From: Deltaproteobacteria bacterium
GTDB taxonomy: Bacteria; Myxococcota_A; Polyangia; JAAYKL01
Length of the DNA stretch: 44,640 nucleotides
Reading direction: 5' to 3'
Assembly: GCA_016935665.1 (NCBI GenBank)
Contig: JAFGQN010000063.1
Coordinates: 1-44,640 of the forward strand
Position numbers and translations under genes: made by a program. Below the pieces are notes generated by a model, which was not told the origin of the DNA, did not search any database, and worked only from the letters and a program-made list of their open reading frames with translations. Numbering within the stretch: the first letter of the stretch is position 1; each line of letters opens with the position of its first letter. This document shows positions 6,020 through 15,378 of this stretch, in pieces.

Positions 6020-7747
6020 CTAGTCGGCAGCAACGAACGCAGCTTTGTTTAGGTCTTGAGATAATGGTGTAATTTCAGATACTTCAAAGATCTTCAAGGG
6101 GGTCTTCCCCGCTTCGCGATCGGCGACTTTAAATTCTGTGAAAATCGTTTTGGGCTGGATGACATCGCCTTTGTATTTAAGACGCAAATTCCAGTAGGCA
6201 CTCAATGCCATCGCACCAGCTCTCAGCAGCCGCCCCTTTACATCGGGTTTTCCAATAAGTGCGGTAATTCGTTCATCCAAATCCGATGCCCGCTGATATT
6301 CGAGGTCGTTTACGGCGTTTGCCTTAATTACAGGCAGCATGGTGGCGTACTCGAGCATTCGCGCGCGCAATTGGCGGGCGCGGACTTTATAGTTTTCAGA
6401 ATCTGACGCTCTTCTACGAATGGTTTCGTATCCGCGAACAGAAGTTTCAACAATGCGATAAATGGTGCTGGAGTTCACTTCGAACTCTTTTTTAAAGGCC
6501 CCTTTTAACGTGTGTTCCGCCAAATCGCCGGGAAATGCGTGGTGATCCCAATTGAGCATTTTTTGACCGTGCCATTCCTCAAAGGGCAAATCCTCACGAA
6601 GCAAACCCTTTTTTTTGAGGCGACTGTACAGACCGGTGACGGGTAAGGGCGTAAACAACATGAACTGAACGGTGTCCGCTTCAATATCAATCATAAAATC
6701 AATATCTTCCTGGATGTTTTCGGGAGTGTGGTGCTCCATGCACAAAATGCCGGAACCCAGAACCGAAATGCCCACGTCACGCAACTGGCGCACCAGTTCT
6801 TTGGGTTTGATTCCGTTGTTTTTTTCAAAGGCGCCCTGGTCTGTTTTGGATTCAAACCCAATCCAGGCGAATGTAATCCCCATGCGCACCATATTTTCAA
6901 TGCCAAACGCGGTGATGGCTTCGCATGATGAGAACACATGGAAATTGAAGAACCGGCTGTGTTTCTCCATTTCATCGATGAGCTCCATGGCGCGCTCGCG
7001 ATCTTTAAGGAAGTTTTCATCCATTACAAAGAACGCATCGGTGCCGCGCGCGTCGGCGATTTGACGGCACGTATTGAAAATCTCTTTGCCGGAGCCCAGA
7101 TATGATGTGTATTTCTTTCCAAAGAAATGGGATGTACTGCAAAAACTGCAGGCATTTACACAGCCCACACCCGGAACCAGCAGACTGGCCGTGGGACCAG
7201 GGACTGGAACACCAAAGATGCGCTGCATTTCCGTGGATGGCAGAGCAGGGTGCACAATGGGATCGAGGAGGCTTTGACCAATATACTTTCGCATCCAGTA
7301 AATGCCTTCGCCTTTTACGACATGGTCACATTCGATGATTTCTTCCACCCCTTCAATTGCAGCGCCGTGACCGCCAAGGATAATTTCGGCACTGGGACAG
7401 TGCTCCCGAACCAGACTGGCCATTTCCCGGGCTTTGACAAAGTTGGGCGTGATAAAGGAAATGCCCACCGCATCATAACCCTTTTTGATCTCTTCAATAA
7501 ATCGCTCTCTGGACGGAAAATCCAGAACGTTCACGTCGGTTTTCATATTGGCGGCCATGAAATAGAGGCCGAAACTGCGGTGATGAAAACGAAACGAAGC
7601 GGCGCCCTGCGCCTTGGTCACCTGATTGTGAAACAACTCCATTATGTTTTCTTTTCGTCCCCATTGGTCGTCAACACCAAAGGGGCCGAATACACCACTT
7701 AATAGAATTTTTTTTCTGGGGGTATCTGTTACAATCGCCTGAGTCAT
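6020..7747 (-). CDS. B12-binding-domain radical SAM protein
   Basis: A 575-residue protein of the class with an N-terminal cobalamin-binding Rossmann domain (about 15-155, with VGISFITPNF and IILGGHGA) followed by a radical SAM TIM barrel. The iron-sulfur motif is CVNACSFC (Cys196, Cys200, Cys203), the expected CxxxCxxC. The SAM region continues through FFVMDENFLKDR, and the C-terminal 150 residues are a helical accessory domain. Such enzymes do methylations or ring rearrangements on varied substrates; the substrate here is unknown and no biosynthetic partner is adjacent. ATG 7747 is preferred (AAGGTGAGG upstream) over GTG 7756. The gene stands alone, with a possible PhoB-type operator upstream. 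Confidence 0.85.
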   Translation of the reverse strand: MTQAIVTDTPRKKILLSGVFGPFGVDDQWGRKENIMELFHNQVTKAQGAASFRFHHRSFGLYFMAANMKTDVNVLDFPSRERFIEEIKKGYDAVGISFITPNFVKAREMASLVREHCPSAEIILGGHGAAIEGVEEIIECDHVVKGEGIYWMRKYIGQSLLDPIVHPALPSTEMQRIFGVPVPGPTASLLVPGVGCVNACSFCSTSHFFGKKYTSYLGSGKEIFNTCRQIADARGTDAFFVMDENFLKDRERAMELIDEMEKHSRFFNFHVFSSCEAITAFGIENMVRMGITFAWIGFESKTDQGAFEKNNGIKPKELVRQLRDVGISVLGSGILCMEHHTPENIQEDIDFMIDIEADTVQFMLFTPLPVTGLYSRLKKKGLLREDLPFEEWHGQKMLNWDHHAFPGDLAEHTLKGAFKKEFEVNSSTIYRIVETSVRGYETIRRRASDSENYKVRARQLRARMLEYATMLPVIKANAVNDLEYQRASDLDERITALIGKPDVKGRLLRAGAMALSAYWNLRLKYKGDVIQPKTIFTEFKVADREAGKTPLKIFEVSEITPLSQDLNKAAFVAAD

Positions 7748-7815
7748 AATCCTCACCTTGGTTGAAAATTCACAGCCTTACTACAAGCCCGCGATGATAG
7801 TATTTAGCACCCGCG

Positions 7816-7854
7816 AGTCACCAGGAAGTCATCCGTGTGTCATCGTTGTGTCAT
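7816..7854. promoter_or_regulatory. Four 11-bp-phased GTCA direct repeats (OmpR/PhoB-type operator-like)
   Basis: On the plus strand GTCA occurs at 7817, 7828, 7839 and 7850, exactly 11 bp apart. The last three are GTCAT and the last two GTGTCAT. Winged-helix response regulators of the PhoB/OmpR class bind such 11-bp phased direct repeats. On the minus strand a -10-like TACTAT follows at about 7787-7792, so the array would cover the -35 region of the radical SAM gene. The half-sites point away from that gene, opposite to E. coli pho boxes. Confidence 0.55.
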
Positions 7855-7879
7855 GAAACAAAGAAAATGCTGAAAAACG

Positions 7880-8347
7880 CTATTTCTTTAATCTTTTCAG
7901 TATTTTGGGGCCAAGCCAGGCAAGCAGGACGGCAAGACCGATGATGATTGCATGCCGTGGAGAACGGATAAAACGGAGTAAAAAGGGCAGGGCCGCCAGC
8001 ACGACGACGAGAATGACCAGTTTGCGCATGGCGCCAACGCTCTGCCGTTGAGGTTGCCGGGGCGCACAATAGTTGCCCCCGCCATACGGTGGAACGTGGG
8101 GCCCCATTTTCGCAGCGATGCGGGCGGCATCGTATTCCGCTCGCAATTGGCTCTTCGAAAGCACTTCATACGCCTCGTTCACTTCAATCAGTTTTTCTTT
8201 GGCCAGCTCCTCAAGGTCATTTCCCTGGTGCCGGTCCGGATGATAACGAGACACCATTTCCCTATACCCCCTGTGGATGGTGTTGGCGTCAGCGCTTTGG
8301 GATATTCCCAAAATGGCGTAATAATCTTTGTGCGGATTAAATTTCAT
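7880..8347 (-). CDS. Membrane-anchored J-domain protein
   Basis: Residues 8-76 are a J domain with HPD at 36-38 in RYHPDRH and a clear helix IV region (EAYEVLSKSQLRAEYD). A short Gly/Pro linker follows, then two hydrophobic segments (about 109-125 and 132-146) and a basic tail KRLKK. The J domain would face the cytoplasm and recruit DnaK to the membrane. There is no Gly/Phe-rich, zinc-finger or client-binding DnaJ C-domain, so this is a specialised co-chaperone. It starts 36 bp after hflC on the same strand, which suggests a joint role with HflKC in membrane-protein quality control. An AT-rich imperfect hairpin covers its stop codon. Confidence 0.85.
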   Translation of the reverse strand: MKFNPHKDYYAILGISQSADANTIHRGYREMVSRYHPDRHQGNDLEELAKEKLIEVNEAYEVLSKSQLRAEYDAARIAAKMGPHVPPYGGGNYCAPRQPQRQSVGAMRKLVILVVVLAALPFLLRFIRSPRHAIIIGLAVLLAWLGPKILKRLKK

Positions 8348-12847: not shown

Positions 12848-14023
12848 TTATTGCGTATCTTCTGATTCCTGATTGGAAGTGTCAAGCTCGGCTTCCGAAA
12901 TGGCGGGCAGATAAAACGTGAATGCCACGCCTAATCCGTCATTGGCTACATCGATGAATCCATCGTGTTGCTGTGCGATGCGCGATGAGATGGACAGGCC
13001 AAGCCCAGTGCTGTCGGTACCGCTGTAAAACGGGTCGAAAATATCTTCCACATGGCCAACGTCCACCGGCGGGCCGTTGTTTTCGATGCGTAAAAAAGCC
13101 TGAATACTATCGTCTCGCAATGTGGCGCCCACAGTGAATCGAATAATACCCTGACGATTTTGGGTGTGCGCCAGCGCGCGCTCAGCATTGATGAATATGT
13201 TTATCGCCAGTTGTGCAAGAAGATCTCTGTCTCCGCGCACCGCAACAGGAGATGAGGAAATCTCGGATTGCAGTTCAATATCGGTCTGTCTGGCCTGTGC
13301 ACCGTATAGCGACTGAACCCTGCCGGCCACTTCCCTTAAATCCAGTGGTTGCATTTGAGCGTCGGAAGGTCTGGCAAATGACAGAAATCGCTCCGCCACA
13401 TTTTGAAGACGCTTTATTTCAGATACGTGAATCTCCCACAGTTTGCGCTCTTCACAGTCTTTGGGGATCACAGGGTCCACAATTTCCGATGTGCCAAGAA
13501 GCGAGTGCAGTGGGTTTTTGATTTCGTGGGCGATGCCCGCAACCGTCTGTCCCAGCGCGCTGAGACGACCCGCCCTCACCAGTTGCGTTTGCAGTGCTTC
13601 CCGTTCGCCAAGGGCCACTTCCAGACGTTGGCGTTGTTTTCGCTCTTTATCGGCGAGGTATCCGGCGATGGCGCCCAGCAGCAGGTAGATGCCAATTTCC
13701 AGAATTTTTTCGATGCCTTTGGCGGGATCCAGGTGGTGAGGCATGAAAAACGCATGGGGAATATAGGCGAGAGTGACCACCGCCGCAAAAAAAATGCCGC
13801 CCCGAAGGCCACCCTGGACGGCGCCAACCACAATCGGGAGATAGTACAGACGCCGCAACACATCGTGAGCTTCAATCCACTCATGACTTGTCAGATAGTG
13901 AAACAGTGTAACTGAAAAGAGGGGCATCCAGGCGGCCAGCAACGTTGTCGGAGAGTATAACGTCACCAAGAATCGTTTTTTTGATGACATTTGTGGGCCG
14001 CTGTGCCTTTGGAGATGGCTCAT
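12848..14023 (-). CDS. Membrane histidine kinase of a sigma-54 two-component system
   Basis: A 391-residue sensor kinase. It has about three to four hydrophobic segments (26-45, 60-95, 107-125) with little periplasmic loop, then a helix, the HisKA domain with His166 in GIAHEIKNPLHS, and HATPase_c with N box NIFINAERALAH and FDPFYSGTDSTGLGLSIS. The G1 box is ENNGPPV rather than the usual DNGPG. ATG 14023 overlaps the response-regulator stop as ATGA, so I reject a longer frame to 14296 that runs through the regulator gene. It pairs with the regulator just upstream. The signal is unknown; the neighbouring metal-site lipoprotein hints at metal or envelope stress. Confidence 0.92.
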   Translation of the reverse strand: MSHLQRHSGPQMSSKKRFLVTLYSPTTLLAAWMPLFSVTLFHYLTSHEWIEAHDVLRRLYYLPIVVGAVQGGLRGGIFFAAVVTLAYIPHAFFMPHHLDPAKGIEKILEIGIYLLLGAIAGYLADKERKQRQRLEVALGEREALQTQLVRAGRLSALGQTVAGIAHEIKNPLHSLLGTSEIVDPVIPKDCEERKLWEIHVSEIKRLQNVAERFLSFARPSDAQMQPLDLREVAGRVQSLYGAQARQTDIELQSEISSSPVAVRGDRDLLAQLAINIFINAERALAHTQNRQGIIRFTVGATLRDDSIQAFLRIENNGPPVDVGHVEDIFDPFYSGTDSTGLGLSISSRIAQQHDGFIDVANDGLGVAFTFYLPAISEAELDTSNQESEDTQ

Positions 14024-15378
14024 TTCTGTATTCCAAATTTTTCCATGCGATACGCGAGTACATGCCTTGGAATTTTTAAAAATGCGGCCGTTTGGGACAC
14101 ATTGCCGCTTTGCAGCCTGAGCGCTTTTTCGATAATGGCTTTTTCGATGTCGAGCAATGATACACCGTCGGCGGGAAACGTAATTTTGTCCGCCAGTGTG
14201 TCGCCATGGGTTTCGCAATTCGTGCCCGTCATGGCCGGCGGGAGATCGTCGATCTGCACAGTCTCCTCCCGCGCCAGCAACACCAGTCTCTGACATATAT
14301 TTTCAAGCTCGCGGATATTCCCGGACCAGGGGTGCCGGCACATGATGTCCATTACCGGGTCGGGAATCTCCAGTGTTCGGCCCATGGAAAACACCGATAT
14401 AAAATGGCGTACCAGCATCGGAATATCATCCCGCCGTTCTCTCAGCGCCGGCACCGGGATGTCCACCACGTTAATCCGGTAATATAAATCTTCTCTAAAT
14501 CGCCCCTCCGCAACTTCGTGGGTTAGATGGCGATTGGTGGCCGCCACCACTCGGACATCCACCTTTTCGGGTGCGTCGCTGCCAAGGGGATCCACTGTTT
14601 TTTCCTGTAGCACGCGCAACAGTTTTCCCTGCAGCGCCAAAGGGAGCTCCGCAATCTCATCCAGGAAGATGGTCCCGCCATGGGCCTGGCGAAATCGTCC
14701 CTGGCGGTTGGATGTCGCACCGGTGAAGGCGCCTTTCTGATGGCCAAAGAGTTCTGATTCGATGAGATTTTCGGGCATGGCCGCAAGGTTCACTGCTACA
14801 AAAGGACCGTTGGCCCTTTGACTTCGGGCGTGAATGCGTCTGGCGATCAGCTCCTTTCCCGTTCCACTTTCGCCACTGATAAGCACCGATGCTTCCGAAG
14901 CGGCAAAACGGTCCGTGGTTTCCACTGTTTTAGCCATTTTTTCCGAATGAAACAAAATAGGGCGCTCCACACCACCTGCCCTGGCGCGAAGGCGCGTTAT
15001 TTCGCTGGTCAGTTCCCTGTGCCGCAGTGCTTTTTCCACCACCAGTAACAGATGATCCCGACTAAACGGTTTTCCCAGAAAATCCTCGGCGCCCAGCTTC
15101 ATCGCTTCCACTGCCAGTTCCACATTGGCAAAGGCGGTAATAATGATGACCGGTAACGCCGGGTGGTTTTTTTTGATTTGTTTCAGCACATCAATGCCGC
15201 TCATGCCCGGCATTTTTACATCGGTTACCACCAAATCGAATGTGTCGGCAGCGAGAGTCGCCATGCCTTCATCGCCATCGGCCGCGGACTGGACATCGTA
15301 TCCGGCTTTTTTCAGGTTGAAGACAGCCAGCTCCCGCCCCGACGGATCGTCCTCCATAATCAGGATTCGTGTACTCAT
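14020..15378 (-). CDS. NtrC/ZraR-type sigma-54-dependent response regulator
   Basis: A 452-residue regulator. The receiver has phospho-acceptor Asp53 in VVTDVKMPG. The AAA+ domain has Walker A GESGTGKE (169-176), the sigma-54 contact loop GAFTGA (216-221) and Walker B GGTIFLDE (234-241). A Fis-type helix-turn-helix ends the protein (GNVSQTAAFLKIPRHVLAYRM). It acts on sigma-54 promoters, one of which lies 480 bp upstream in front of the lipoprotein gene. It is co-transcribed with the kinase through an ATGA overlap. Confidence 0.95.
   Translation of the reverse strand: MSTRILIMEDDPSGRELAVFNLKKAGYDVQSAADGDEGMATLAADTFDLVVTDVKMPGMSGIDVLKQIKKNHPALPVIIITAFANVELAVEAMKLGAEDFLGKPFSRDHLLLVVEKALRHRELTSEITRLRARAGGVERPILFHSEKMAKTVETTDRFAASEASVLISGESGTGKELIARRIHARSQRANGPFVAVNLAAMPENLIESELFGHQKGAFTGATSNRQGRFRQAHGGTIFLDEIAELPLALQGKLLRVLQEKTVDPLGSDAPEKVDVRVVAATNRHLTHEVAEGRFREDLYYRINVVDIPVPALRERRDDIPMLVRHFISVFSMGRTLEIPDPVMDIMCRHPWSGNIRELENICQRLVLLAREETVQIDDLPPAMTGTNCETHGDTLADKITFPADGVSLLDIEKAIIEKALRLQSGNVSQTAAFLKIPRHVLAYRMEKFGIQK

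Follow-up and report, generated by a model that had tools for sequence, protein, structure and literature searches.

What signal governs an uncharacterised B12-binding radical SAM gene, and which regulator would carry that signal to its promoter? The question is raised by a window of 44,640 nucleotides (the whole stretch of DNA analysed here; contig JAFGQN010000063.1 of the Deltaproteobacteria bacterium assembly GCA_016935665.1), in which four plus-strand copies of GTCA, at 7817, 7828, 7839 and 7850, lie between the stop of a J-domain gene at 7880 and the ATG of the radical SAM gene at 7747. Their period is exactly 11 bp, just as a first-pass annotation of the sequence had read it. On the minus strand, which codes for the radical SAM protein, the array becomes a fourfold TGAC and reads TGACACAACGA-TGACACACGGA-TGACTTCCTGG-TGACTCGCGGG-TGCTAAATA. 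Comparison with related sequences makes it probable that this array serves as operator for a dedicated two-component system, with an OmpR-family regulator encoded on contig C10 of the same genome, that targets membrane-homeostasis genes together with the B12 radical SAM gene. In what follows, G-numbers denote the genomes of the window's family (n = 14, G000 being the genome of the window), L-numbers loci and C-numbers contigs.

A phased array with conserved promoter geometry

The array is nearly unique in its genome. With up to two mismatches allowed, its pattern matches the window twice (the array and its own one-unit shift), as against a mean of 0.05 matches across 100 dinucleotide shuffles of the window, and the exact four-unit GTCA pattern occurs twice in the 8,161,753-base assembly. 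The genome's only other four-unit match, at G000:C149:2433-2469 (L002), is a near-perfect simple tandem repeat of GTCACATRCCA.

The first-pass annotation had taken such phasing as a mark of binding by an OmpR/PhoB-class regulator and had staked this on the array recurring in relatives, which it does. Within the family it lies upstream of the orthologues in G005 (86% identity), G004 (85%), G003 (74%) and G006 (84%, partial). For a broader comparison we fetched 80 homologues with named records from many phyla and assembled 82 upstream regions, namely those of 78 of these homologues (L116 and L155 have no upstream sequence), the window, the genome's two own paralogues and G010. TGAC pairs spaced by 11 bp are present in 23 of the 39 upstreams of close homologues (at least 54% identity) and in 3 of the 43 more distant ones. 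At control spacings of 4-10, 12-21 and 23 bp, the same 39 close upstreams yielded 0-2 pairs, and a spacing of 22 bp, twice the period, yielded 8. Around the pair, the most frequent letters spell RTGACA-N3-CCRTGAC. Both paralogues in this genome carry two-unit boxes, one of them imperfect (TGAC, TGAT).

The distance from the array to the -10 element is also conserved. TA stands 14 nt downstream of the last TGAC, counted from its T, at 12 of 22 close sites (T at 16, A at 16), and other offsets between 6 and 23 nt are found 0-3 times; in this count L108, one of the 23 close sites, was omitted for its short stretch, and L086 and L109 are scored as misses although their arrays extend past the anchor. 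TACTAT, the -10 proposed by the first-pass annotation, is indeed present at 7802-7797 on the minus strand, but the relatives favour the overlapping TAAATA (7806-7801), which sits at offset 14. At all 23 close sites the best -35-like hexamer at a spacer of 16-18 matches TTGACA in at most three of six letters, and in the window in two of six. Because there is no good -35, and given what is known of PhoB-class regulators, this layout suggests a promoter that depends on an activator and has boxes where the -35 would be. Spacing and -10 offset together are those of OmpR/PhoB-type operators built from 11-bp direct repeats at a promoter; the recurrence of these head-to-tail sites upholds the proposed regulator class at the level of sequence, and supports the further idea that through the array the B12 radical SAM gene would answer to a signal.

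Genome scans with the array and its -10 returned few sites besides radical SAM promoters. Across the 14 family genomes, TGAN8TGACN7TGACN10TA has eight matches, five at radical SAM promoters (G000 and G003-G006), one at a TrhA gene (G007) and two in simple repeats (G013), and the reversed control has one. The shorter TGAC-N7-TGAC-N10-TA occurs in 3 of 340 upstream regions of open reading frames (ORFs), all three belonging to radical SAM genes; these regions come from 39 sequences (38 fetched plus the window), several of whose loci had been picked for their radical SAM gene, the rest being background. Extending the scan to 317 genomes of the class, three exact units plus TA gave 15 matches (control, 1), seven of them outside the family. 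One of these seven (L269) belongs to a gene with a B12-binding domain, cut by the contig end, that is divergent from a two-transmembrane (TM) kinase and a 51%-identical regulator; another (L271) lies upstream of a desaturase. The two-unit pattern TGACA-N6-TGACA was rejected as a genome-wide regulon marker, its 23 matches against 16 for the reversed control being too weak alone, but its scan of the own genome nonetheless pointed to a fatty-acid desaturase gene (PF00487). Single pattern matches also occur at G006:C41, G009:C60 and G012:C177.

By eye, the upstreams of L100 and L101 contain extra GTCA[GC]G repeats with an 11-bp period and in the opposite sense, upstream of the TGAC pair, and the L112 upstream contains such repeats with no TGAC pair; perhaps these are sites of a second regulator.

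A linked OmpR-type regulator, its kinase and candidate membrane targets

The genome encodes only five OmpR-family regulators. Each was compared with the ORFs that flank 96 homologue loci, of which 80 are named and 16 come from the family; the flanks span at most 4 kb and are often cut by contig ends. Full-length relatives of these five regulators appear within the flanks at 15 of the 80 named loci, and in seven of these cases the relative is of the type encoded at C10. At these seven (L089, L099, L101, L106, L108, L114 and L155) a C10-type regulator (57-65% identity) adjoins the radical SAM gene, usually accompanied by a two-TM histidine kinase, and the PhoB-like protein of contig C12 is never the best match among the regulators beside the gene. 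The order radical SAM - kinase - regulator on one strand is seen at L099, L106, L114 and L155, and also at L108 if a tblastn match is preferred over an antisense ORF; at L101 the regulator is divergent from the radical SAM gene. The gene had first been described as an orphan, which is correct for this genome, but in several relatives from other phyla it shares an operon with a two-component system.

In a tree of 44 regulators, the seven linked regulators and 11 C10-type orthologues from the family form one 18-row clade (support 100/99), outside which fall the PhoB-like protein of C12 and those regulators that neighbour distant homologues; the genome's own C10 protein, one of the 11, is row L198, and a split regulator from G007 was left out. 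The C10 protein scores above the cut-off for both PF00072 and PF00486. C10-type regulators of at least 67% identity are found in 12 of the 14 family genomes (that of G007 in two pieces), and radical SAM homologues of at least 49% identity in 11.

The partner kinase has HisKA and HATPase_c as its only Pfam domains, with no extra sensor domain. By hydropathy, two hydrophobic stretches separated by a very short loop precede the histidine box in the C10 kinase, in five linked kinases and in the L269 kinase, and the C10 kinase is 51% identical to that of L114 (over 311 residues) and 34% to that of L269 (over 302 residues). Two TM segments, a loop of a few residues and no sensor domain are the features of intramembrane-sensing kinases, of which SaeS is an example according to the available text of PMC4388633; the kinases of L159 and L160 have a longer loop.

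More distant homologues offer a second view of the link between box and regulator. TTTTACA-type repeats at 11 bp are found, with a strict pattern, in 7 of the 43 distant upstreams (40-52% identity), three of the seven having TA at offset 26, and a TTTTACA-like site seen by eye at L158 stands outside this count. TTTTACA direct repeats take the place of the TGAC type upstream of L159, L160, L161, L118 and L140, with OmpR-type regulators of other clades nearby, and at L159 and L160 enzyme, kinase and regulator form an operon whose regulators fall outside the C10 clade. In these small numbers, box type and regulator type appear to vary in step, which is what one would predict were the box read by the linked regulator.

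The same box occurs at genes of membrane homeostasis. The TrhA (PAQR) gene that the strict scan found in G007 matches the equivalog NF011669 at 262 bits (cut-off 80), and all nine family genes of this kind score above the cut-off for PF03006. Six of the nine have an 11-bp TGAC pair upstream, and each of these six shows TAnnnn at offset 14, counted from the best register of four units: TAAGAG in G007 (which has four exact units), TACTTT in G001, TACAGT in G006, TATATT in both G005 and G004, and TATAAA in G000. The array is strong in G007, G001 and G006, its score being reached in 0 of 300 shuffles, and moderate in G004 and G005 (1 of 300 each). PF03006 genes that lack an array are those of G008, which has no regulator, and of G012 and G013, whose PF03006 protein is divergent. 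Because TGAC pairs are found in the nine upstreams at spacings of 9 and 20 (three each) and 22 (four) as well, the layout of the three g1 genomes is mixed. For Escherichia coli, the available text of PMC9017321 places trhA in the unsaturated-fatty-acid regulon, reports an influence on membrane energetics and calls the mechanism of TrhA still unknown.

The desaturase promoters of G000 and G005, whose genes are orthologues (69% identity across the compared part), contain two TGAC pairs each, followed at offset 14 by TACCTG and TACATG, respectively. In G007, a box of two units followed by TA at offset 14 (L246, G007:C276:1340-1371) is found 82 nt upstream of a FabH-like (3-oxoacyl-ACP synthase III) gene, a single case that may represent a further lipid target.

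In the mechanism that we propose, the C10 regulator would be paired with a two-TM histidine kinase whose external loop is minimal and in which no sensor domain is recognisable. Once phosphorylated, the regulator would probably occupy the array in head-to-tail fashion, each 11-bp unit taking one subunit, as far as the usual -35 position, and would bring RNA polymerase to a promoter with a -10 but without a -35. Its targets in this genome would be the radical SAM gene of the window, probably the two paralogues, the TrhA/PAQR gene and the fatty-acid desaturase gene. A system with these targets would both sense membrane state and adjust it. We infer the binding, the activation (rather than repression) and the signal.

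Weighing the readings of the array

Several observations weigh against assigning the array to the C10 system. An exact TGAC pair is missing from 16 of the 39 close homologues, and in the own genome the arrays of the two paralogues are shorter or imperfect and that of the TrhA gene is weak, with 11 of 16 letters and a score reached in 31 of 300 shuffles. The desaturase relative in G003 (52% identity) has no matching -10, leaving box and -10 at two of the three family desaturases, and five of the seven matches outside the family resemble chance. Occurrence is imperfect as well: in G008 a radical SAM homologue (49%) carries a box-like site, yet no regulator exceeds 44% identity, and G012 and G013 have the regulator without a close radical SAM gene, their PF03006 genes being among those with no array. 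In the window's family the kinase-regulator pair is never beside the radical SAM gene, and it is unlinked in this genome; it adjoins sucC/sucD-like genes in G000, G004, G003 and others, and no convincing array was seen upstream of the pair. Finally, the top NCBIfam model for the C10 regulator is PhoB, at 208.2 bits against a cut-off of 296.2.

This last point bears on phosphate, the signal that the first-pass annotation had favoured. Were the array a set of inverted pho boxes bound by PhoB, the radical SAM gene would respond to phosphate starvation, and several features fit: the complement of the array (TGTCATCGTTGTGTCA) is like the E. coli pho box, and spacing and -10 geometry match the promoters of the family's pst regions. 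However, at pst/phoU regions in seven family genomes we found eight distinct boxes which, followed along transcription, have the form YGTCAY-N5-TGTCAC (second half TGTCAC in all eight; first half YGTCAY in seven and TATCAC in one). The YGTCAC-N5-TGTCAC of these promoters has the other sense, and the window array is of the TGACA type. At six of the eight, TA lies 16 nt past the T of the second TGTCAC; two of the boxes, both in G007, face a contig end with the gene served out of view, and gene calls around the G008 box are doubtful. Because TCACA in these boxes and TGACA in the array both lie 14 nt from the -10, on the same strand, we regard the array as a different box in the same register rather than a reversed pho box; the reversal of half-sites noted earlier is probably an illusion, TGACA being the complement of TGTCA. 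In genome scans, the check that had been suggested, the strict array plus -10 turned up at genes for radical SAM proteins and TrhA and in simple repeats instead of at phosphate genes, and the other targets are membrane genes. The C12 regulator, which we call PhoB-like because of its higher PhoB score (237.7 bits, under the cut-off of 296.2) and its PhoR/PnpS-like partner (likewise under cut-off), belongs to a clade apart from the regulators linked to the radical SAM gene. One site does speak for PhoB, a TGTGACA-N4-TGTGACA box in coding orientation just upstream of a Na/Pi-cotransporter-like gene (L175, G000:C21:27508). Its orientation is opposite to that of the other pho boxes. On balance, PhoB control of the array is unlikely, and phosphate is probably not the signal.

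We find it more doubtful still that another of the five OmpR-family regulators (C90, C218 or C82) binds the array and that C10-type linkage elsewhere reflects a different circuit. That the C10 pair is unlinked in this genome favours such an arrangement, as do the 40-52% homologues, whose TTTTACA repeats and other OmpR-type neighbours indicate that partners can change, but the regulators linked to genes with TGAC boxes are of the C10 clade, the exception being L100, where another OmpR-type regulator lies about 3 kb upstream. Dark repression by a CarH/LitR-type protein, a B12-dependent MerR-family photoreceptor sitting on the four 11-bp repeats of a B12-enzyme gene, is very improbable. The gene product does bind B12, judged by domain, and the available text of PMC9304148 describes CarH operators as three or four tandem 11-bp direct repeats, nnnnTnnACAn, that overlap the -35 or the -10, but the TnnACA core is absent from the 80 nt that surround the array and the regulators found linked to the gene are OmpR-type (MerR-type ones were not looked for). 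To chance, or a functionless simple tandem repeat, we give almost no credence: the four-unit pattern does recur in the unrelated repeat at C149:2433, but in the window array the sequence between units differs, and conservation of spacing and -10 offset across phyla already refutes this explanation. Control of a divergent gene was rejected, there being none at the array (the upstream neighbour is on the same, minus strand), and a known RNA element was rejected since the window has no Rfam match. The array thus reads as a conserved module of operator and promoter through which an OmpR-type system, very probably the one at C10, would join the radical SAM enzyme to membrane-homeostasis genes.

The enzyme, its surroundings and related systems

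The protein encoded downstream of the array has both domains of a B12-binding radical SAM enzyme (table below) and a CxxxCxxC motif (C199-x3-C203-x2-C206) that is invariant among 13 homologues. No NCBIfam equivalog fits it, the best being HpnJ (81.3 bits against a cut-off of 577.6), and by sequence its nearest solved structure is only biotin synthase (E 4e-4). A structure model built on a 13-row alignment is of modest confidence (predicted local distance difference test score 72, weak near the active site), with AprD4, TsrM and MgmA as its best fold matches. Judged solely by co-regulation with TrhA and the desaturase, the enzyme would act on membrane lipids. The family is found in metagenome-assembled genomes labelled Deltaproteobacteria, Myxococcales, Acidobacteria, Lentisphaerae, Nitrospirae and others.

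Features of the array, its promoter and the adjoining genes in the window
Feature	Position	Strand	Basis
Array unit 1 (TGAC, most upstream)	7850..7853	-	pattern search
Array unit 2 (TGAC)	7839..7842	-	pattern search
Array unit 3 (TGAC)	7828..7831	-	pattern search
Array unit 4 (TGAC, promoter-proximal; array in place of -35)	7817..7820	-	pattern search
Probable -10 TAAATA, 10 nt past unit 4	7801..7806	-	TA offset in relatives
Probable ribosome-binding site AAGGTGAGG	7751..7759	-	inferred from sequence read
B12-binding/radical SAM gene, from likely ATG (alternative start GTG at 7756)	6020..7747	-	PF02310 and PF04055 over cut-off
J-domain membrane protein, upstream neighbour, outside the control unit	7880..8347	-	PF00226

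Elsewhere in the window, at 12848-15378, a histidine kinase gene (HisKA and HATPase_c, with DUF4118 just under cut-off) overlaps a receiver-domain gene; the pair is apparently unrelated to the array. The C10 kinase-regulator pair has surroundings of its own: at L168:4752-9555 and in the orthologous loci L228-L236 the sucC/sucD-like genes come after it, and a gene for a secreted thrombospondin-3-repeat protein often comes before it.

We found no description of a module of array, regulator and radical SAM gene in our searches of the open-access PubMed Central literature; its parts resemble known systems. With HpnJ, BchE, TsrM, MgmA and the AprD4 fold, the enzyme shares PF02310, PF04055 and the CxxxCxxC motif, but it falls far under every NCBIfam equivalog cut-off. 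The array is like CarH operators (PMC9304148, available text) in its tandem 11-bp direct repeats over a promoter, and differs in that its region has no TnnACA core. It has in common with the Pho regulon the tandem head-to-tail 11-bp boxes, the fixed distance to the -10 and a regulator of OmpR/PhoB type, whereas the unit is RTGACA rather than TGTCACA in the same register, the regulator belongs to another clade and the targets are membrane genes. The kinase resembles SaeS, LiaS and other intramembrane-sensing kinases in its two TM segments, very short loop and lack of a Pfam sensor domain, but it matches no known system by NCBIfam cut-offs and is linked to a B12 radical SAM gene. On the best reading of the sequences, this uncharacterised enzyme would be the main target of an intramembrane-kinase/OmpR-type system.

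Two-component control of membrane genes is itself already known. In the DesK/DesR system of Bacillus subtilis, a kinase acting via its membrane part controls a fatty-acid desaturase, as the available portions of PMC6879721, PMC3996569 and PMC8301901 describe, and the last gives DesK five TM helices. The present system would be akin if it, too, controls a desaturase; box and -10 stand at two of three family desaturases and at one outside the family. It differs in its kinase, which has two hydrophobic stretches instead of five TM helices, and in its regulator, which is OmpR-type and would read tandem 11-bp boxes, DesR being a NarL-type regulator; its predicted main target is the B12 radical SAM enzyme, with TrhA in addition. 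What would be new is thus the class of regulator, the box and the B12-dependent output. A more sweeping proposal, to which we give somewhat less than even chances, is that of a widespread membrane-adaptation system of uncultured bacteria in which TGAC boxes switch on a lipid-modifying B12 radical SAM enzyme (for example one methylating or cross-linking acyl chains), a desaturase and TrhA; if true, the radical SAM enzyme would represent a novel class of enzyme that remodels lipids, directly under membrane-state control. Either way, an uncharacterised B12 radical SAM family gains a concrete candidate regulator, a promoter architecture and a set of putatively co-regulated genes through which its function becomes testable, and the comparison suggests an OmpR-type counterpart to the membrane-state sensing of DesK/DesR, with a B12-dependent output and TrhA.

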